Below, piece after piece: positions 44,895-62,222 of a DNA stretch of 64,000 nt. The stretch comes from Chloroflexota bacterium. GTDB taxonomy: Bacteria > Chloroflexota > Dormibacteria > Dormibacterales > Dormibacteraceae. The stretch is from assembly GCA_005882135.1 (NCBI GenBank), contig VBDR01000030.1, positions 52,052-116,051 on the forward strand. The letters run 5' to 3'. The notes below the pieces were generated by a model. That model made no database searches, was not told the origin of the DNA, and was given only the letters and a program-made list of their open reading frames with translations. How positions within the stretch are numbered: position 1 is the stretch's first letter; the number at the start of each line of letters is the position of its first letter. A program made the translations under genes and the position numbers.

Positions 44895-44969
44895 GGGCGG
44901 CTAGCTCAGTGGGAGAGCGCTTGCCTCACACGCAAGAGGTCGTTGGTTCAACCCCAACGCCGCCCACCA
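44895..44969 (+). tRNA. tRNA-Val (anticodon CAC)
   Basis: GGGCGGC/GCCGCCC acceptor, CTTGC-CTCACAC-GCAAG, encoded CCA. Confidence 0.95.
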
Positions 44970-44974
44970 ATAGC

Positions 44975-45051
44975 GGCCCCGTCGTCTAGTGGCCTAGGAC
45001 GCAGCCCTCTCAAGGCTGAGATCGCGGGTTCGAATCCCGCCGGGGCTACCA
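44975..45051 (+). tRNA. tRNA-Glu (anticodon CTC)
   Basis: GGCCCCG...CAGCC-CTCTCAA-GGCTG...GCGGGTTCGAATCCCGC CGGGGCT ACCA. Confidence 0.95.
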
Positions 45052-45208
45052 ACTTCATGGCCCCTGAATGTGCGCCCTGCGCGCGCCCGGCGAGGCTGAG
45101 ATCGCGGGTTCGAATCCCGCCGGGGCTACCAACTTCATGGCCCCTGAATGTGCGCCCTGCGCGCGCCCGGCGAGGCTGAGATCGCGGGTTCGAATCCCGC
45201 CGGGGCTA
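45013..45208 (+). repeat. 80-bp-period tandem repeat of the tRNA-Glu 3' half plus downstream flank (about 2.45 units)
   Basis: AGGCTGAGATCGCGGGTTCGAATCCCGCCGGGGCTA recurs at 45013, 45093, 45173 with identical 45-nt linkers. Confidence 0.95.
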
Positions 45209-45332
45209 TTTCGTCACCATGACTAACATCCAGCACCCAGTGCGAGCGCAGTGGCGACGGCAATGATTGTTCGGCTGCGGGTCGCCGCAATTGATCGGAG
45301 CGGCTCTCACACTGGTCGACGCGTGACGGGTC

Positions 45333-46307
45333 TCAGGCTGGGCTCATCTGAGACTTCGTCCCCAGCAGGATAGCCTCTGCGCCCTCGACCAGCTCGTGGA
45401 CGATCTTCGCTGCCGGCTCGACCTTCTTGACGTCGCCCACTGACTGGCCCGCGTAGCACGCCATCGCGGCGATGGTTCCCACGAAGCTGCGATTGGGCGG
45501 CGCGCCCGCGAAGCGGGGAATTGGCCGCACTCCCGGCCAATCGCCTGCGGTCTCGGTCTGCAAGGCCTCAGCCCTCTCGATCGCCGATCGCAGTACGCCG
45601 TGTGTGGAAGGGCAGAGTGGGCAGTCGACGTGGAACCGGTTCGTGCGGACGCTGTCCTCTGCGCGTGCCGCGATTAGCGCCTTCACGTAATCCGGATGCG
45701 CATTGGTTTCCTCGGCAGCGAGGAACCGCGTCCCGATCCGTGCCCCCGCGGCGCCCGCGGCGATCACGCCCGCCAGCGCCCGTGCGTTGCCGATCCCGCC
45801 TGCCGCCAGCACCGGAACTTTCACAGCTTCTACAACCTCGGTCAGAAGCTGGAGCACACCCAGCTGGCCGCGGATATGGCCGCCGGCCTCGATGCCTTGG
45901 GCGATGAGGAAATCGCAGCCGGCGGCCTCGGCCGCGACCGCCTCTTCGAGCGACCCCGTCTGCCAGCTGGCCAGAGCACCCCCGGCATGTGCGATACGCA
46001 CCAGCTCGGCGTCGGGCCGGCCCCAGAAGAAATCGACCACCCGGCAGGCTCGGGCGGCAGCCTTGACGGCCTCCGTATCGACGACCGGGATCAGGAAGTT
46101 AAGGGCGAAGGGCTTCTTGGTCTGGGTGCGGATGAGGTCCACGCGTGCCTCCACCTCGTTAGGAGTCAGCCCGGCGACCGTGTTCGTGCCCAGGCCGCCA
46201 GCCTGCGACACTGCTGCTGCCAGTTCGGGCCCGCCAACCGAGCCCATGCCTGACATCTGAATCGGCGCCTCGACGCCGACTAGCTCAGTGAAGGTTGTTC
46301 TCAGCAT
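45333..46307 (-). CDS. nitronate monooxygenase / 2-nitropropane dioxygenase-like
   Basis: TELVGVEAPIQMSGMGSVGGPELAAAVSQAGGLGTN, AGCDFLIAQGIEAGGHIRG, PVLAAGGIGNARALAGVIAAGAAGARIGTRFL. Confidence 0.92.
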   Translation of the reverse strand: MLRTTFTELVGVEAPIQMSGMGSVGGPELAAAVSQAGGLGTNTVAGLTPNEVEARVDLIRTQTKKPFALNFLIPVVDTEAVKAAARACRVVDFFWGRPDAELVRIAHAGGALASWQTGSLEEAVAAEAAGCDFLIAQGIEAGGHIRGQLGVLQLLTEVVEAVKVPVLAAGGIGNARALAGVIAAGAAGARIGTRFLAAEETNAHPDYVKALIAARAEDSVRTNRFHVDCPLCPSTHGVLRSAIERAEALQTETAGDWPGVRPIPRFAGAPPNRSFVGTIAAMACYAGQSVGDVKKVEPAAKIVHELVEGAEAILLGTKSQMSPA

Positions 46308-46463
46308 GGCTTTAGCCCTCCTTCCGCTGCCATAGGCTCGCTCCTTGATGAGAGTCTGCGCCTCCACAAAGCATTGGGAATCGCGCGATCGCGCTATTTG
46401 TAGGACTGGCGGCCGGAGATCGAAGTCAGCAGAAGACGATCCGAGGTTTCTTAGGTGTCGCCC

Positions 46464-46481
46464 CGAATCCCGCCGGGGCTA
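46464..46481 (+). repeat. diverged tRNA-Glu 3'-end copy (att-like)
   Basis: CGAATCCCGCCGGGGCTA identical to the tRNA-Glu 3' end, followed by diverged TACCAAC...GTGAATCCGCACGCCTGGCGAG. Confidence 0.75.
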
Positions 46482-46654
46482 TACCAACCTGACGCACTTC
46501 AACCCGTGAATCCGCACGCCTGGCGAGCGTCTCGTCCAACACATATAGGCTCGTTTCTCGCCAGGAAGGCCGAATTTTCGAGCGCGGCTCAATGGAGTTG
46601 CGCGCCGTCGGTGGTGACCCCAGGGCCGAGGCCCTGGGGTCGACGGTGGATCTA

Positions 46655-47146
46655 TTAGCCGAACGAGTACTGCGCCGTGTAGACGCCGAACGGGCCCTGC
46701 GGTGTTGGGGAGACGATGGCTGTCCCCTGACCGTGCAAGTCAGCCAGCCCGCCCGACCCAGAGAGGACGAAATGCGCTTCCGACACTCCCGAGGTGTTAG
46801 TCGTTCCGGCGATGTTGTCGAAGACGAGAGTTCCCGTTCGACCGCCTACGGCACATGTGCAAGTGGCATTCCCCTGGAGGTTCTGGGAGCCGTCGGGATG
46901 GGTCACGATGTGGAGCTGTTCGGTGAAGTTGCCGGTGATATCACCTGTCACCACTCCCGCCGGGAAAGAGAGGGTGACGAACGCGTTGCCATCGGCCATG
47001 CGGAAACCAGACGGCACCGGCGCCGCCACGAAGAAGAACGTGCCGGCCACTGATATGGGGCTCGACGCCGCGACCGGCTGGACCGCTACGAGGGCGGCTC
47101 CAGCCGCCAGCACCAAGGTCAGCAATCTCGTCCTAAATCGGATCAT
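46655..47146 (-). CDS. secreted allene-oxide-cyclase-barrel/DUF3224-like protein
   Basis: Signal peptide MIRFRTRLLTLVLAAGAALVAVQPVAAS; same frame as, but separate from, the SnoaL pseudogene. Confidence 0.6.
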   Translation of the reverse strand: MIRFRTRLLTLVLAAGAALVAVQPVAASSPISVAGTFFFVAAPVPSGFRMADGNAFVTLSFPAGVVTGDITGNFTEQLHIVTHPDGSQNLQGNATCTCAVGGRTGTLVFDNIAGTTNTSGVSEAHFVLSGSGGLADLHGQGTAIVSPTPQGPFGVYTAQYSFG

Positions 47147-47159
47147 GGGGCCCTCCTCG

Positions 47160-47596
47160 TTAGCTGATAGCGGGATGCGGCGTGAGCCCGAGCTGGGCCA
47201 GGATTTCGGCTTGGTCGAAGTATTCGCGCTGCGTCTTGATCCGCCCATCGCGGTCGACGATCCCGACACTAGCGCCTGCACGTCGACATGCTTGTTAGTT
47301 GCGGGCAGCAGCTCGCCGGTCGGAAGCGGGAGTGGCCCGCCGTTGGTTCCTGCCGATGCGTACTCCACCGCGACGGCATCGCCCTGCTCGACGATGCGCC
47401 TGAGCGTCACCTGCACATCCGGGAACGCGCCAAACATCTGCGCATAGAACGCGACCACCGCTTGACGTCCTTTGAACGTCGGCATCCCTGGCCACGTGAG
47501 CTCAGCATCGTCCGCGTACATGTCTCCAATCGGGTTCAGGTCGTGCGCATTGACCGCCGCATTGAGTCGCCGCACACGATCCGCTATCGCTTTCAT
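47160..47596 (-). pseudogene. SnoaL-like (NTF2 fold) gene with 1-nt frameshift
   Basis: N-terminal half closely matches 52687..53124; frame shifts near 47270-47277, where the paralogous C-terminus VGIVDRDGRIKTQREYFDQAEILAQLG resumes. Confidence 0.75.
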
Positions 47597-47650
47597 TGCA
47601 ACTCCTCCTATCCGTTGTTGGCGACATCGTCAGGGTCCGGCGGCACGGCT

Positions 47651-47668
47651 CGAATCAGGGAAACCCCT
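47651..47668 (+). promoter_or_regulatory. shared operator-like motif CGAATCAGGGAAACCCCT
   Basis: Exact inverted copy at 52617-52634; related copy at 52556-52574. Confidence 0.65.
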
Positions 47669-47699
47669 ATGTCTTAAATCCATCGACGGCAGGCATAAG

Positions 47700-50501
47700 A
47701 TGGGCCGGATGTTCCTGGGGAGGGACGCGGAGCAAGCCCGGATCGATGCACTCCTGGAGCACGCTCGCTCAGGTGTAAGCGGAGCCCTCATCGTCAGCGG
47801 CGAGCCGGGAATCGGTAAGAGCGCCTTGCTGAGCTACGCGGCCGACATGGCCCTCGATATGACGATGTTGTCAGCCACAGGGGTCAAGGCTGAATCCGAG
47901 CTCGCCTTTTCTGGACTTGCTCAGCTCCTGCATCCCATCCTCGACCTGATCGACGAAATTCCGAAGCCACAGGCGGCGGCGCTCGCCAGTGCGCTGGCCT
48001 TCGGTCCACCTGTGATGTCCGATCCATTCGCTGTCTCGGCGGCAACGCTCAGTCTCATCGCAGCAGCGGCCGAGAACAGCCCGCTGTTGGCGGCTGTCGA
48101 CGATGCTCACTGGCTCGACGCAGCCTCGCGGGGGGCGCTGGCGTTCGCGGTTCGTCGCCTGCATGCCGATCGAGTCGCATTCATCTTCGTGATCCGCGAA
48201 GGTGAGAAGACCGATCTCCAGTTCGCGGACTTCCCCCGAATGACCCTGCAGGGCGTCGGCTTCGAGACGTGCCGCGAACTGCTCGCACGGGGCGCTGGGT
48301 CGCCGGTGGCCGCCAGGGTCGCCCAGCGCATATGGGAAGAGACGCAGGGCAATCCTCTTGCGATCCTCGAAACCCCACGTCTGCTGACAGCAGCCCAGCT
48401 ATTGGGAACCGAGCCGCTGCCTGAGCTACTTCCAGCTGGACCTGGAATTCAGATGTCGTTCGAGCGCCGCGTCGCCAGCCTTCCGAAAAGGACCCAGATG
48501 GCTCTCCTCGTCGCGGCCGCATCACAATCCGGCTCCATCAAAGAGATGGCGCGAGCGTATGCCAGCAGTGAGGTAGCTCTGGTCGACCTGGACTCCGCCG
48601 AAGCGGCCGGACTGATCTCGAACGACGGTCTCACGATCCAGTTTCGACATCCCTTGGTGCGCGCGGCTGTCTATCAGGCGGCCGCGCCCGCGGACCGGCG
48701 TGCCGCTCATCGGGCGCTCGCAAGCTCTGCTGAGGTCGATGGTTCACCGAGTGAGCGCGCCTGGCATCTCGCGGCTGCGGCGCAAGGAGAAGACGAGGAG
48801 GTGGCGGCGGCCCTCGAAGCGGTCGCCAACGATGCTCGCCGGCGTAGCGGCCCCGCTGCAGCATGGCGCGCCTTTGAAAGGGCGGCGCGATTGACGCCGG
48901 ACCCCGAGCAACGCGCGCGACGGCTGCACGAGGCAGGCAGCGATGCTTACGTTGCGGGCCAGTCAGAGCGATCGAGGGCCTTGTTAGACGAGGCGCATGT
49001 CCTGGCGCGAGAAATGAGCCTGCGCGCCGACATAGAGCACACGCGCGGGCGCATCGAGATGTGGACACGGTCCCCGGCTGCCGCCCGCACGATTCTGCTC
49101 AAGGCGGCCGAGCAGATCGAAGCTCACGACCCAGCCAAGGCCACTCTCATGCTGGTGGACGCAGCTACCACCACCACCCAAGAAGTCGATCCCGACGAGA
49201 GCATGGTGCAGCAGTCGCTGCGAGTCTCTCAACGCGCGTATGAGCTGGGCTGCCAGGTCGGAGGCATCACCCAGGCGGCAGCCGAAGGCGCATATGGCAA
49301 GGCGCTACTCATCCTCGGACAGAACGCCGACGGACATCGTCTACTCCTTCGCTCGCTAGAAGCGATTGACGCGAGAGAATCGCCCTGGCTGGCGATCCAG
49401 CTGATCCAGTACGCCCACTGCTTCCTCTATTTCGAAGAGTTCGATCGGATGCGTGCCCCCCTGGAACGTCTGATTGCCGAGGCCCGCGAGTCTAGCGCGC
49501 CCGGGGCTCTTCCCTATGCGCTCGGTCACTTGTCCGAACTGGACTTCCGAACCGGACGCTGGTCGGCGGCTCACACTGAGGCAGCCGAGGCCGTCGAGCT
49601 CGCCACCGAGCTTGGCCACAGGTTCTCCTTGATATATGCGCTCGCCTGCCTTTCCTGGATCGAGGCGGCCCGCGGATTGGAAGCGGATTGCGAAGCTCAC
49701 CTTGCAAGGCTATGGGATGTCTCCGAGCACGCCCGGGACGCTGTCGGCGGCTATGTTGCTCGTATCAGCGGGCTTTTGGACCTGGGGATGGGGCGGAATG
49801 AGCAGGCCGTCAAACATCTCCTGCGGGTGGTCGAGGCCTTGGCGCGGTTAGGACTGGTTATGCCATATCTATTTCAGGAAGTCCCGGACTTGATCGAAGC
49901 GTATGTCTACACGGGGCAGCGCTCGCAGGCGCAGGCGGCGCTCATGGTCTTGCAGGAGCAGGCGGCGACTGCTCCCGGATTGTGGCCTCGTGCCGCTGCT
50001 GCTCGATCCCGCGGGCTTCTGGAGGAGGATTTCCAGTCGGCATTCGAGGAGGCCTTGCATCTGCATGATCGGGTGCAGATGCCATTCGAGCGGGCGCGAA
50101 CCGAGCTCTGTTACGGAGAGCGACTACGGAGGGCTCGTCGCCGTGCCGAGGCTCGCGACCAGCTGCACGCGGCACTTCAAACTTTCGAACGCTTGGGCGC
50201 TGAGCCGTGGGCCGATCGCGCGCGCAATGAGCTGCGAGCTACGGGAGAAACCGTGCGCCGCGACCGATCGGCTTCAGATGAGCTGACTCTTCAAGAAGTG
50301 CAGGTCGCGTTGAAGGTGGCCGAGGGTGCCACTAACCGGGAGGCTGCCGCCGCCCTCTTCCTCAGCCCGAAGACGATCGAAGCGCATCTCAGCCGCATCT
50401 ACAGCAAGCTCAGAATCCGTTCACGTACCGAACTGGCTCACCGGTTTGCTCAAGAGAGCTCGATGGGGCCTGCAGCCGGTACGCCGACCTCCAGGCGGTA
50501 G
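47700..50501 (+). CDS. LuxR-family regulator with AAA ATPase domain (LAL/MalT-like)
   Basis: LGRDAEQARIDALLEHA, SGEPGIGKSALLSYAA; C-terminal GATNREAAAALFLSPKTIEAHLSRIYSKLRIRSRTELA. Confidence 0.93.
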   Translation: MGRMFLGRDAEQARIDALLEHARSGVSGALIVSGEPGIGKSALLSYAADMALDMTMLSATGVKAESELAFSGLAQLLHPILDLIDEIPKPQAAALASALAFGPPVMSDPFAVSAATLSLIAAAAENSPLLAAVDDAHWLDAASRGALAFAVRRLHADRVAFIFVIREGEKTDLQFADFPRMTLQGVGFETCRELLARGAGSPVAARVAQRIWEETQGNPLAILETPRLLTAAQLLGTEPLPELLPAGPGIQMSFERRVASLPKRTQMALLVAAASQSGSIKEMARAYASSEVALVDLDSAEAAGLISNDGLTIQFRHPLVRAAVYQAAAPADRRAAHRALASSAEVDGSPSERAWHLAAAAQGEDEEVAAALEAVANDARRRSGPAAAWRAFERAARLTPDPEQRARRLHEAGSDAYVAGQSERSRALLDEAHVLAREMSLRADIEHTRGRIEMWTRSPAAARTILLKAAEQIEAHDPAKATLMLVDAATTTTQEVDPDESMVQQSLRVSQRAYELGCQVGGITQAAAEGAYGKALLILGQNADGHRLLLRSLEAIDARESPWLAIQLIQYAHCFLYFEEFDRMRAPLERLIAEARESSAPGALPYALGHLSELDFRTGRWSAAHTEAAEAVELATELGHRFSLIYALACLSWIEAARGLEADCEAHLARLWDVSEHARDAVGGYVARISGLLDLGMGRNEQAVKHLLRVVEALARLGLVMPYLFQEVPDLIEAYVYTGQRSQAQAALMVLQEQAATAPGLWPRAAAARSRGLLEEDFQSAFEEALHLHDRVQMPFERARTELCYGERLRRARRRAEARDQLHAALQTFERLGAEPWADRARNELRATGETVRRDRSASDELTLQEVQVALKVAEGATNREAAAALFLSPKTIEAHLSRIYSKLRIRSRTELAHRFAQESSMGPAAGTPTSRR

Positions 50502-52634: not shown

Positions 52635-52686
52635 TGGAATTGCTGCAGCCACCACGATGTCTACGAAAACTCCAAGGAGGACAGCG

Positions 52687-53124
52687 ATGCGAGACATGAC
52701 GGACCGTGTAAGACGACTGAACTCAGCGGTGAACGCTCACGACCTTAATCCGATTGGCGACATGTATGCCAACGATGCCGAGCTGAAGTGGCCAGGTCTG
52801 CCGGCGATGAAGGGACGTCAGGCAGTGGTCGAGTTTTACGCCCAGATGTTCGGCGCCTTCCCAGACCTCCACGTGACGCTCGAACGCATAGCCGAGCAGG
52901 ACGGCGTCGTTGCCGCCGAATATGAGGCAGGCGCGACCAACAGCGGACCGCTGCCAATGCCCGGCGGGCAGTTCCTACCGCCAACGCAAAGGCGGATCGC
53001 AGTTCACGCGACCAGCGTCGGGACCGTCGATCACGAAGGCCGGATCAAAGTCCAGCATGAGTACTTTGATCAACTCGATGTGCTGACTCAGCTCGGCATC
53101 CTGGCTGTACCCACTGCGCGTTGA
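52687..53124 (+). CDS. SnoaL-like (NTF2-fold) protein
   Basis: RRLNSAVNAHDLNPIGDMYANDAELKWPG...GRQAVVEFYAQMFGAFPDLHVTLERI. Confidence 0.85.
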   Translation: MRDMTDRVRRLNSAVNAHDLNPIGDMYANDAELKWPGLPAMKGRQAVVEFYAQMFGAFPDLHVTLERIAEQDGVVAAEYEAGATNSGPLPMPGGQFLPPTQRRIAVHATSVGTVDHEGRIKVQHEYFDQLDVLTQLGILAVPTAR

Positions 53125-53768: not shown

Positions 53769-54008
53769 ATGCGAACCACGATCGACCTCGATCCGACGGT
53801 CGTGAAAGAGCTCAAGCGGCGCAGCCGGGGCGCCGGCAAGAGCATGGGCCAACTGGCCTCAGAGCTGCTGGCGACGTCGCTCCGAGAGCAGGGGAGCCGT
53901 CAGAAGCATCCCGCCGTGTTGGAGTGGATCGCGAAGGATCTCGGCCGGCCGCTGGTTGACCTAGAAGACAAGGAAGCGGTTAGGGCGGCGCTAGACGGGC
54001 CTCGATGA
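53769..54008 (+). CDS. TA1 antitoxin (ribbon-helix-helix-like)
   Basis: MRTTIDLDPTVVKELKRRSRGAGKSMGQLASELLATSL. Confidence 0.82.
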   Translation: MRTTIDLDPTVVKELKRRSRGAGKSMGQLASELLATSLREQGSRQKHPAVLEWIAKDLGRPLVDLEDKEAVRAALDGPR

Positions 54009-54469
54009 GCGCCACCATCGACGCGAACATCCTCGTCTATGCGAGCAATCAGGCCGACCCGGTCCACGCGCAGGCCGGACGGCTGCTTCAGGTCCTGGCC
54101 GCCGGCCCGGACCTTCTATACCTGTTCTGGCCCGTCGTAGTGGGATATCTACGCATCGTTAGCCACTCGGCGATTCTTTCGAGGCCGCTAAGCCCTCGTG
54201 ACGCTGCTGGCAACGTCGAATCTCTACTTAGCCGGGGACACGTCCGCGCGCTGGGCGAGGGGGAGGGATTCTGGGAATTGTTCCGAGCTACGAGCCGCGA
54301 TCAGGCGCGCGGCAACGACGTCCCGGACGCACACCTTGTGACTCTGATGAGGCAGCATGGTGTGCGGCGAATCTACAGCCGGGACGCCGGGCTACGCCGG
54401 TTTGCTGACATCGAAGTCGTCGATCCCTTCGCGTCTGCACCGGGCGGCGGACGTCGGTCTCGCGCTTAG
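54005..54469 (+). CDS. TA1 toxin, PIN-domain (VapC-like)
   Basis: TIDANILVYASNQADPVHAQA...GNDVPDAHLVTLMRQHGVRRIYSRDAGLRRFADIEVVDPF. Confidence 0.88.
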   Translation: MSATIDANILVYASNQADPVHAQAGRLLQVLAAGPDLLYLFWPVVVGYLRIVSHSAILSRPLSPRDAAGNVESLLSRGHVRALGEGEGFWELFRATSRDQARGNDVPDAHLVTLMRQHGVRRIYSRDAGLRRFADIEVVDPFASAPGGGRRSRA

Positions 54470-54635: not shown

Positions 54636-54830
54636 ATGAGCAAGAGGTTGGTTGACATCGATGATCGCCTGCTGGCCGCTGCCCGGGCCGAACTCGGAAC
54701 CGACACCATCAAGGCGACCGTGAATGAAGCCTTGCGGCGGGCGGCGCGGGCCCGAGCGCAGGAGATCCGCAAGGCGCTGGACGGGCTCGCGGAGAGGTCG
54801 TTCTCAGATCGCGGCGAAGCTTGGCGCTGA
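54636..54830 (+). CDS. TA2 antitoxin (VapB, type II RHH)
   Basis: MSKRLVDIDDRLLAAARAELGTDTIKATVNEALRRA. Confidence 0.87.
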   Translation: MSKRLVDIDDRLLAAARAELGTDTIKATVNEALRRAARARAQEIRKALDGLAERSFSDRGEAWR

Positions 54831-55234
54831 CGCATCTCGCTGACACCAGTGTTCTGACTCGCGTTCGCCATGCCGACATCTACGGAAGGCTCGCGAATCT
54901 GCTTGAGGCGGCGGCGCTGGCGCGCGCCGACATCTCGGATCTCGAGTTGGGCTTTACGGCCCGCAACGCTCGCGAGTGGGACAAGATTCAGCACGACCTA
55001 CGGCCGTTTTCCGTCCTCGAAACCTCGCCGGCGCACGTGCATAGGGCGCTTCGGGTGCAGCGTGCCCTCGCGGAAAACGGACTCCGCGGACGGAAGGTGC
55101 CGGATCTCCTTGTCGCAGCAGCAGCTGAAGAAGGAGGATTGGTGCTACTCCACTACGACACCGACTTCGACCTGATCGCCAAGGTGACGCATCAGCCTTG
55201 CGAATGGATCGTGCCCCGCGGGAGCATCGATTAG
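54821..55234 (+). CDS. TA2 toxin, PIN-domain VapC
   Basis: LADTSVLTRVRH...GRKVPDLLVAAAAEEGGLVLLHYDTDFDLIA; overlaps antitoxin. Confidence 0.88.
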   Translation: MALTHLADTSVLTRVRHADIYGRLANLLEAAALARADISDLELGFTARNAREWDKIQHDLRPFSVLETSPAHVHRALRVQRALAENGLRGRKVPDLLVAAAAEEGGLVLLHYDTDFDLIAKVTHQPCEWIVPRGSID

Positions 55235-55291
55235 CTCTAGAGGTCGACCTCCTCGAACCGGCATCGGAGAATCGGTGTAGGACTTGTCGCC

Positions 55292-55312
55292 CGAATCCCG
55301 CCGGTGCTACCA
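55292..55312 (+). repeat. diverged tRNA-Glu 3'-end copy (att-like, retains CCA)
   Basis: CGAATCCCGCCGGTGCTACCA vs tRNA-Glu CGAATCCCGCCGGGGCTACCA (1 mismatch). Confidence 0.75.
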
Positions 55313-55353
55313 CTATCGCCATCATAGAATGTGATAGTAAAGTGCCGATATAA

Positions 55354-55844: not shown

Positions 55845-56426
55845 CTACCTCCCTGGCCGCTCGACCACGCGCAAGGCGAGGTCGCTGATAATCGCGGGCG
55901 CGTCGCGCCCCGGAACCCCGGCGTCGACCAACGACTTCCAGAATGGGAAATCGAGCAGGGCCTTCAGCGCGGCTCGGCGCTTCCGTCCGATTCCAGCCCC
56001 GAGCGCTGCACTAATGAGCGCGTCGAGCGCGCGATCTTGCATCCGCGCCGCGACGGCGAGGGCCGGCACGCTGCGGGCCTCCCGCCTGCACGCATCAAGC
56101 CACTCCTCCCCGCGCTCGTAGCACCGGCAGGATTCGACGATGACCTTTTCGAGCTTCTCAGTCGGATTTGCCATTCCGGAGAACAAGGACGCCAGCTCAC
56201 CCGCAGCCGGCAGGCGGGCACCGGCGGCAAAGGCGGCCTGGGCGCAGGCTGGAATGAGGTCGTCCAGCGTCGGGAAGTGCCGATAGACCGTGGCCGTGGA
56301 CACATGCGATGCCACGCCAATCTCGGCCCAGCTGGTTTGAGTGATGCCCTGCCGGCCGTGGAGCCGAACGGCAGCATCGATGATGCGCTCGCGCGTGCCA
56401 CTGATCAGCTCGGCCCGCCGCGCCAT
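55845..56426 (-). CDS. TetR/AcrR family regulator
   Basis: TRERIIDAAVRLHGRQGITQTSWAEIGVASHVSTATVYRHFPTLDDL. Confidence 0.92.
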   Translation of the reverse strand: MARRAELISGTRERIIDAAVRLHGRQGITQTSWAEIGVASHVSTATVYRHFPTLDDLIPACAQAAFAAGARLPAAGELASLFSGMANPTEKLEKVIVESCRCYERGEEWLDACRREARSVPALAVAARMQDRALDALISAALGAGIGRKRRAALKALLDFPFWKSLVDAGVPGRDAPAIISDLALRVVERPGR

Positions 56427-56594: not shown

Positions 56595-56900
56595 GTGACG
56601 AAGAAGGTCGCGGACGAGATTGACGTACTCGCAGCTGCATCGATCGCTGGTCGGTCGGCGGAGACGGTGCGCCGCTGGGTATGGTCTGGCCGCCTGCGGG
56701 CGCACAAGCGCGGAAACAAGCTCTTGATCGATCGTTCGGATCTCGAGCGTCTCCTCAAGTCGAGCGCCGCGCGGAAGAGCCTGACGCTGGCGGAATGGCT
56801 CGAGTCTCTGGAGCGCTCGGCTCTGAAATCCGGAGCCAAAGCCCGATCGGCCGCCGATCTCGTCCTCGCCGATCGTCGCGCGAGGTCCGACGAGCTGTAG
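56595..56900 (+). CDS. TA3 antitoxin (MerR/excisionase-type HTH)
   Basis: LAAASIAGRSAETVRRWVWSGRLRAHKRGNKLLIDRSDLERLL. Confidence 0.8.
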   Translation: MTKKVADEIDVLAAASIAGRSAETVRRWVWSGRLRAHKRGNKLLIDRSDLERLLKSSAARKSLTLAEWLESLERSALKSGAKARSAADLVLADRRARSDEL

Positions 56901-56904
56901 TTCG

Positions 56905-57324
56905 ATGCCCGTACTGGATGCCAGTGTCGTCATCGACTGCATCGCGCCTGACGTCTCTCTTTCGTCTCGTGCCGTCCGCACCCTGGCGCGACTGGCGGCC
57001 GAAGGAGCTGAGCTGGTTGCGCCTGCCTTGCTCGTCCAGGAATGTGCAAACGCACTGCTGACGGGCATCCGGAAGGGTCGATGGTCTGGGGCTGCCGGCG
57101 ACCAGGCCTATGGGTTCCTCGTCGGCCTACCTCTGAAGCTCACCGACGACGCGCGCCACGTCGACCGCGCCTGGGAGCTGTCGCGGCGATTTGACAATCA
57201 CCCGATCTACGGCATGCTTTACGTCGCGGTCGCCGAGGCCGCCGGCATCGACCTGATCACTGCAGACGAAACTCTTCGGTCGCGCCTGCGGCATTTGGCG
57301 TGGATCAAGGCTCCCGATCCCTGA
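56905..57324 (+). CDS. TA3 toxin, PIN-domain
   Basis: MPVLDASVVIDCIAPD...LVAPALLVQECANALL...HPIYGMLYVAVAEAAGIDLITADETLRSRL. Confidence 0.87.
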   Translation: MPVLDASVVIDCIAPDVSLSSRAVRTLARLAAEGAELVAPALLVQECANALLTGIRKGRWSGAAGDQAYGFLVGLPLKLTDDARHVDRAWELSRRFDNHPIYGMLYVAVAEAAGIDLITADETLRSRLRHLAWIKAPDP

Positions 57325-60680: not shown

Positions 60681-60847
60681 CCCAGGCCGCAAATCTGGTC
60701 TGGCCATGCCAAGCCTGATTACGAACCTCTGGCGTCAACGATGCGTGTCGCGTTCATCTGAAACGCCCCGGTGGCACCAACGGCGCGGAATCCCTCAAGA
60801 AAGCATCCTACACATCTTACGCGTTGGTGGTGTGTATACTGGCGCAG

Positions 60848-61072
60848 ATGAGGCGAATCCAGATTCACATCGATGAGGCACTGGACGACGCGGCTGAAGC
60901 CGAGGCGGCGCGACGAGGATTGTCGAAGGCGGCTCTGATCCGCGCTTCGCTGGCGCACGAGTTGGCGGTCGATGAACGCCCGGCCACGGATCCGTGGGAG
61001 GCGATCACCGGATGGCTGGACGACGGTCCGGTTGACGACCTCGATGCCGTCATTTACGAGCGCGGTCGGTGA
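60848..61072 (+). CDS. TA4 antitoxin (CopG/RHH)
   Basis: MRRIQIHIDEALDDAAEAEAARRGLSKAALIRASLAHEL; TATACT ends 7 nt upstream. Confidence 0.85.
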   Translation: MRRIQIHIDEALDDAAEAEAARRGLSKAALIRASLAHELAVDERPATDPWEAITGWLDDGPVDDLDAVIYERGR

Positions 61073-61464
61073 GGTTCGCTGACACCAGTTTCTGGTTCGG
61101 ACTGCAGGAGCGGCGGGACGGCCGGCACCAACACGCACGGGCTCTGGTGGTACGCGGGGTCGGTCGCGTGGTTACCACCAATCACGTTGTCGGTGAAACA
61201 TGGACCCTTCTTCGTCGGCGGTCCGGGCACGCCGCCGCCGTCGGCTTCCTCGACCGACTGGGCGCGCTGACGGATGTGACCGTTGTCCACGTCGACGACG
61301 CGACCGAAGTGGAGGCATGGCGTTGGCTTCGAGCGCGGTCGGAGCGCGAATACTCATTCGTTGATGCCACCAGCTTCGCTGTGATGCGACGACGCCGGAT
61401 CCGCGAGGCCTTGGCATTCGACGGTGACTTCAACGCGGCCGGTTTCGTCGAAGTCAGACCGTAA
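61069..61464 (+). CDS. TA4 toxin, PIN-domain
   Basis: RFADTSFWFGLQERRDGRHQHA...YSFVDATSFAVMRRRRIREALAFDGDFNAAGF. Confidence 0.88.
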   Translation: MRFADTSFWFGLQERRDGRHQHARALVVRGVGRVVTTNHVVGETWTLLRRRSGHAAAVGFLDRLGALTDVTVVHVDDATEVEAWRWLRARSEREYSFVDATSFAVMRRRRIREALAFDGDFNAAGFVEVRP

Positions 61465-61559: not shown

Positions 61560-61831
61560 TGGGACGGGTAGGAATTAGAGAGCTTCGGCAGAATGCAACT
61601 GCCGTGTTGCGTCGCGTCGCGGCGGGCGAGATCGTTGAGGTAACCGACCGAGGCCGAGCCGTAGCGCGCATCGTGCCCATGCATGAGGCGAGCAGGCTTG
61701 AACAGCTACTGGCCGAGGGGCGAGCGAGCGCCGCAACGGGAGATCTGCTCGACGTGAAGCCGGTGCCGCGGATGGCTGGGAAGCCACTTCTGTCAAAGAT
61801 CCTGGCTGACATGAGGGCAGATGAGCGCTGA
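61559..61831 (+). CDS. TA5 antitoxin (Phd/YefM)
   Basis: VGIRELRQNATAVLRRVAAGEIVEVTDRGRAVARIVP. Confidence 0.92.
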   Translation: MGRVGIRELRQNATAVLRRVAAGEIVEVTDRGRAVARIVPMHEASRLEQLLAEGRASAATGDLLDVKPVPRMAGKPLLSKILADMRADER

Positions 61832-62222
61832 GGTGGCTTACCTCGATACCTCAGCGGCGGTGAAGCTCCTCATGAATGAGCGGGAGTCACGTGCGTTGCG
61901 AAGGTGGCTTCGTCGGCGGCCGGAGCGCGCTTCGGCGGCCCTGCTGAGGGTCGAGCTCGTGCGAGTCGTGCGGCGCGCCGGTTTCCCGCGCTTGATTCCT
62001 GAAGCCCGCAAGCTATTGGCCGGCGTCCATCTGATCCGACTCGACGACGCGCTGCTCGACCGAGCCGCGGACCTCGACCCGACCGACCTCCGATCGTTGG
62101 ACTCGATCCACCTGGCGGCTGCTGCGAGTCTCGGAGATGATCTGGCAGCGGTGGTTTCCTACGACGATCGCTTGCTGGCCGCAGCTGCGTCTGTCGGGTT
62201 GCCGATAGCAACGCCTTCCTAA
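61821..62222 (+). CDS. TA5 toxin, PIN-domain VapC
   Basis: AYLDTSAAVKLLMNERESRALRRWL...LRSLDSIHLAAAASLGDDLAAVVSYDDRLLAAAASVGL. Confidence 0.92.
   Translation: MSAEVAYLDTSAAVKLLMNERESRALRRWLRRRPERASAALLRVELVRVVRRAGFPRLIPEARKLLAGVHLIRLDDALLDRAADLDPTDLRSLDSIHLAAAASLGDDLAAVVSYDDRLLAAAASVGLPIATPS

Follow-up and report, generated by a model that had tools for sequence, protein, structure and literature searches.

Spare tRNA-Glu(CTC) 3' halves in tandem at the head of a putative tRNA-anchored integration hotspot in Dormibacteraceae (Chloroflexota)

A question raised by this locus is why a functional tRNA gene is followed by exact tandem copies of its own 3' half, and whether such copies are scars of serial integration, active recombination sites or products of a local process. 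The window (the whole stretch of DNA analysed, 64,000 nucleotides) belongs to G000, a MAG of 2.7 Mb and 85% completeness, and was compared with about 90 genomes of relatives at most, all of them MAGs as well. A sequence-only reading of the window had described an exact 80-bp period with a third, partial unit ending at GGGGCTA|TTTCG, which was confirmed by the letters themselves and by Tandem Repeats Finder (45013-45208, period 80, 2.5 copies, 100% matches, score 392).

The array sits head to tail directly 3' of the intact tRNA-Glu(CTC), which ARAGORN placed immediately 3' of tRNA-Val(CAC), and heads the variable region (Table 1). It consists of three copies of X, the 36-bp 3' half of the tRNA (AGGCTGAGATCGCGGGTTCGAATCCCGCCGGGGCTA, which begins with the 3' strand of the anticodon stem and ends at the discriminator base), alternating with two copies of a 44-bp spacer that terminates in a 21-bp GC-rich motif, M. 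A full 80-bp unit comprises X (36 bp), a spacer of 23 bp (S) and the 21-bp M (GCGCCCTGCGCGCGCCCGGCG), and the third unit is X only.

Table 1. Features of the tRNA-Glu(CTC) locus in the window.
Feature	Position	Strand	Basis
tRNA-Val(CAC), upstream neighbour, conserved synteny	44895..44969	+	ARAGORN; pair kept in most relatives
Intact tRNA-Glu(CTC), anchor and presumed original target	44975..45051	+	ARAGORN; Rfam tRNA 64.9 bits
X1, 3' half of the functional tRNA-Glu, array copy 1	45013..45048	+	sequence, Tandem Repeats Finder
Spacer S, copy 1 (differs among species)	45049..45071	+	sequence, comparison with relatives
Motif M, copy 1 (21 bp, GC-rich, a dispersed repeat)	45072..45092	+	genome-wide motif counts
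X2, tRNA-Glu 3' half, copy 2	45093..45128	+	sequence, Tandem Repeats Finder
Spacer S, copy 2	45129..45151	+	sequence
Motif M, copy 2	45152..45172	+	genome-wide motif counts
X3, tRNA-Glu 3' half, copy 3, ending at the discriminator base	45173..45208	+	sequence, Tandem Repeats Finder
Nitronate monooxygenase, cargo of the interval from X3 to the following 3'-end copy	45336..46367	-	PF03060 E=4e-45
Type-A attachment-like site (GGTTTCTTAGGTGTCGC + CCCGAATCCCGCCGGGGCTA)	46440..46482	+	profile E=7e-12 (optimistic, because a training site)
PIN-domain protein (VapC-like toxin candidate); relatives in arrays/att-bearing contigs of G003, G033, G057	54005..54469	+	PF01850 just below cut-off
PIN-domain toxin candidate	54821..55234	+	PF01850 E=1e-9
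Degenerate attachment-like site (TTGTCG + CCCGAATCCCGCCGGTGCTACC)	55269..55313	+	profile E=3.5e-7 (optimistic, because a training site)
HTH antitoxin and PIN toxin pair, with relatives abutting tRNA-Glu in G010 and G017 and an X copy in G025	56595..57324	+	PF12728, PF01850
Ribbon-helix-helix-type (RHH) antitoxin and PIN toxin pair, with a relative immediately next to tRNA-Glu in G007	60828..61464	+	PF01850; blastn to L078
PIN-domain toxin candidate, with a relative close to tRNA-Glu in G033	61821..62222	+	PF01850

At the orthologous tRNA-Glu, three X copies were found in G016 (period 80) and G013 (period 79), two in G011 (period 80) and two adjacent ones each in G034, G023 and G033 (periods 93, 90 and 91, respectively), most other relatives having a single copy. 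In a tree built from about 1 kb of upstream sequence, G000 with its three copies groups with G009 and G001, which have one each (support 99/98), G013 is paired with G011 (100/100), and the array-bearing species are scattered with no common group. Because they mix with single-copy species, the copy number of the array turns over. All three states, one, two and three units, thus exist among the sister genomes. Nor is the array fixed in all relatives without variable DNA beside it, the case that the sequence-only reading had named as speaking against its idea, because copy number varies, further 3'-end copies delimit cassettes (see below), and the downstream content differs among relatives while synteny upstream of tRNA-Glu is kept.

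The same comparison bears on whether the repeat is an artefact of short-read metagenomic assembly. Every genome is a MAG and the units are identical, as an artefact would have it, but arrays that differ in spacer and period occur in several independent MAGs, the two spacers of G013 are not identical to each other, and an independent contig (L087) contains spacer-M-X together with an IS insertion. An artefact is therefore rejected as the source of the repeat and regarded as most improbable, while the exact copy number in G000 rests on the MAG assembly.

X and M show little or no change across species, while the spacer drifts (13 of 23 positions alike between G000 and G016, counted by eye). This pattern would suit units that are transcribed as a tail of the tRNA and processed to small RNAs, the array being kept for an RNA function, and the RNA of the tRNA plus array folds somewhat better than shuffles (z = -2.6). 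Such a case is the rtT RNA of E. coli, where the tyrT repeats likewise stand in tandem immediately behind a tRNA gene, each with a copy of the tRNA 3' end. The E. coli units differ in being 178 bp long, in containing no more than a short 3' end and in having a known transcript. Against an RNA function, the excess in folding is expected from repeated tRNA arms, the identity of X is explicable by conversion with the tRNA gene, no Rfam family besides tRNA was found in the array region, and most congeners lack the array. We consider it improbable.

The junctions of the units point elsewhere. M is a dispersed repeat, of which a genome in the window's genus typically has 5 to about 50 copies, compared with about 1 for a reversed control. 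In G000, it also bounds a tandem duplication of the tRNA-Arg(CCT) 5' half with its leader (L134:200-460, G000:C77). Because M is dispersed in the family and bounds this second duplication, a local, M-associated tandem duplication is favoured over integrase scars as the origin of the 80-bp units, judging by junction anatomy. Template switching or slippage involving M and the tRNA arms would have made a tandem duplicate of the segment that starts in the tRNA anticodon stem, includes the spacer and finishes at M's outer end, and recombination between units would then have raised and lowered their number. The spacers of G034, G023 and G033 additionally contain the anticodon arm in inverted form (CTCAGCCTTGAGAGG), which could be a leftover of a template switch. 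The idea of M-X as a mobile unit spread through the genome was rejected, M-X junctions being found only at tRNA-Glu in 42 genomes. Elsewhere, M was followed in sampled contexts (e.g., L053-L068, L090-L143). By this crude analysis, it may be enriched at gene ends, the numbers being small, and inside reading frames, for example those of a UvrD-like helicase and of topoisomerase C-termini (both named by eye), it prefers one phase (8 of 10; antisense peptide AGRAQGA).

Apart from the array, the window has two more, degenerate copies of the tRNA-Glu 3' end in the same orientation, which were absent from the sequence-only reading. Both are fused to "element-side" sequence and have 4 and 5 mismatches in 23 positions, as compared with 0.55 matches at up to 6 of 23 mismatches in mononucleotide shuffles; one weak match lies on the opposite strand (56115-56137). 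A 20-nt 3'-end scan of tRNA-Glu loci revealed 21 extra copies, all of them downstream and in the same orientation, and none in the window's 45 kb upstream of tRNA-Glu. Many copies outside the M-X arrays join type A (GGTTTCGTAGGTGTCGC) or type B (ACGGTATAGCAGTTGTCGC) sequence, followed by CTCGAATCCCGCCGGGGCTA. Of 42 genomes of the family, 13 had degenerate junction patterns of this attachment-like kind, against a single hit in the control, and each of the 10 occurrences of the exact type-A motif (no mismatch) lies beside a tRNA-Glu 3' end, in some cases a degenerate one. The 80-bp units differ from these sites in abutting M rather than type-A or type-B sequence.

The cassettes of the family are small, consisting of PIN toxin-antitoxin pairs, oxidoreductases and hydrolases, with an order shuffled between species. 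The cassettes of G003, delimited by four sites, contain a TetR regulator, a PIN toxin pair and a glyoxalase-fold protein, and the series of G034 includes an FAD oxidoreductase, a cupin, two hydrolases and two toxin-antitoxin pairs. Directly 3' of tRNA-Glu, HTH-PIN pairs are found in G010 and G017 and an RHH-PIN pair in G007. The window region has five PIN-domain genes, one of them just under the Pfam cut-off, and its cassettes recur near tRNA-Glu or on att-bearing contigs in other orders (G033, G003, G001, G034, G007 and G057). The comparison supports tRNA-Glu(CTC) as a serial integration hotspot in the family, in which small cassettes, often toxin-antitoxin, appear to be added downstream of tRNA-Glu, each bounded by a tRNA 3'-end copy fused to element-side sequence; a tyrosine recombinase acting in trans would be the most likely agent. 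Two SnoaL-like genes of the island (46655-47596 and 52657-53124), about 70% alike, are likely an internal duplication. An HTH-PIN pair was also seen just 3' of tRNA-Ala(CGC) (L161/L185, G016:C10), and therefore such pairs adjoin other tRNA genes too.

PF00589 genes were present in all 11 genomes searched, always on contigs other than the att-bearing ones, which are short, so a distant or unassembled integrase may exist. In G007, G011, G017, G023 and G025, the single PF00589 gene detected encodes a conserved XerC/D-like protein. Serine recombinases (PF00239) were absent except from two G013 contigs, and a mechanism based on them was rejected. A phage or viral source was likewise rejected, as IMG/VR contained no exact X or M. 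At three other loci (L173, L174 and L176), small HTH (excisionase-like) genes have tRNA-Asn 3' halves nearby, in antisense orientation and with the cut in the anticodon loop; these are probably ordinary integrative elements in the same family.

These results allow the idea of serial integration and excision, put forward in the sequence-only reading, to be divided. It holds for the hotspot, with its one, two or three copies, variable flank and other 3'-end copies bounding cassettes, but is not supported for the 80-bp units as integrase scars. In a refined form, X2 and X3 would be attachment-site halves displaced by an anticodon-loop crossover of successive elements at tRNA-Glu, the elements having been lost save an 80-bp stub, which was then duplicated. 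An integrase origin keeps some plausibility because X, with its start at the anticodon stem and its end at the discriminator base, corresponds exactly to the stretch that an integrase crossing over in the anticodon loop would push out, displacement of the 3' half being the usual case (Islander, PMC4383910). At the integrative-element-like loci, the tRNA-Asn 3' halves are cut in the anticodon loop, the other tRNA-Glu 3'-end copies resemble integration junctions, and Dehalococcoides ssrA repeats have an element motif just upstream, like M upstream of X (PMC3146451). However, M as a dispersed repeat is neither a site-specific element end nor an element-side half-site specific to the target, in contrast to the exact type-A copies with their invariable position, and the tRNA-Arg 5'-half tandem with M at its junction requires no integrase. 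Furthermore, no element with such an attP was found, nor an integrase nearby, and X is without an exact match in IMG/VR. Overall, displaced attachment-site halves are a rather unlikely origin of the units, although one to be taken seriously.

What the spare tails may do is indicated by insertions at X copies in relatives. In G025, an HTH-PIN pair lies straight 3' of X2. Contig L087, 99.8% identical to window positions 45117-48033, has an IS481-family element (L087:2920-4139) within the T-arm of a tRNA-Glu 3'-half copy, at GGCGG|GATTCGAACC; it was deposited under an Acidobacteria gp7 MAG (AA6) and, because of this identity, is probably misbinned. An IS481-family end at the matching X position was also found in G034 and in contig L208 (G057), which suggests a target preference, and the literature search returned nothing useful on IS481 targeting tRNA genes or on tyrT/rtT. 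In L208, a contig assigned to a different family and perhaps misbinned, spacer-M-X' comes after a type-B site, the layout that would result from entry of an element at an X copy in front of a unit already present. The insertions inside or just behind X copies support the view of these copies as spare target sites, every unit offering the T-arm and acceptor sequence targeted here by mobile DNA. The spare tails are probably extra landing sites that keep the essential tRNA gene intact by absorbing insertions which would otherwise strike it. Running counter to such protection, the cassettes of G007, G010 and G017 sit directly behind the functional tRNA-Glu. On balance, we lean towards a reading in which spare tRNA-Glu 3' halves, multiplied by local duplication into a small tandem array, act as landing sites at the head of a tRNA-anchored integration hotspot.

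The suggestion that the units form an active array of recombination sites was not borne out, given that M is dispersed and recurs at the tRNA-Arg duplication, and that no recombinase was found on the att-bearing contigs examined; their anatomy rather suggests passive extra targets. A related possibility is an integron-like cassette-capture system, with tRNA-Glu 3' ends as recombination sites, one recombinase in trans moving single-gene cassettes and the 80-bp units as empty buffering sites. Integron arrays hold single-gene cassettes of about 1 kb, often toxin-antitoxin, in strain-shuffled order and with a recombination-site repeat at the boundaries. The cassettes described here share the size, the frequent toxin-antitoxin cargo, the shuffled order and a site-like repeat at each boundary, but the boundaries are tRNA 3' ends with element-side motifs and would differ from attC hairpins, gene orientation is mixed, the series is anchored at a tRNA, and no linked integron integrase was found (no PF00589 gene on att-bearing contigs). 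Such a system appears doubtful.

Tandem tDNA and ssrA islands offer a closer parallel. Islander defines tDNA islands by the tDNA, its fragment and an integrase, and lists only 4 tandems of three or more (PMC4383910). In these, as here, the intact tDNA is followed downstream by 3' fragments in the same orientation with variable DNA between them, and crossovers occur at the anticodon loop or the T loop (PMC4383910). The extra copies at tRNA-Glu loci, including those at 46440 and 55269 in the window, and the contents differing among relatives agree with this. In contrast, every island in Islander must have its own integrase and a length of 2 kb or more, whereas the intervals here are often about 1 kb with one gene or gene pair and no tyrosine integrase in or next to them, and the arrays reach 4-6 fragments. 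The closest match in layout and phylum (Chloroflexota) is the Dehalococcoides ssrA islands, many of them in tandem and bounded by a short copy of the RNA-gene 3' end preceded by a conserved element motif, with integrase-less members read as cis-mobilizable elements (PMC3146451). Those, however, have a tmRNA target, a 20-bp repeat, reductive dehalogenases and often an integration module, as opposed to a tRNA-Glu target, toxin-antitoxin and enzyme cargo and an additional cargo-less 80-bp tandem (PMC3146451). The locus would thus appear to work like tandem tDNA/ssrA islands, while strict membership fails on the integrase.

Overall, a curious repeat is tied to a hotspot of gene capture that is reproducible within an uncultured soil lineage, where a series of cassettes of roughly 1 kb, rich in toxin-antitoxin pairs and with no linked integrase, is anchored at a tRNA gene. 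Such loci are likely overlooked because they fall under the size and integrase filters of island finders. If spare 3' halves do absorb insertions, they would represent a simple way to host site-specific mobile DNA while keeping the essential tRNA.
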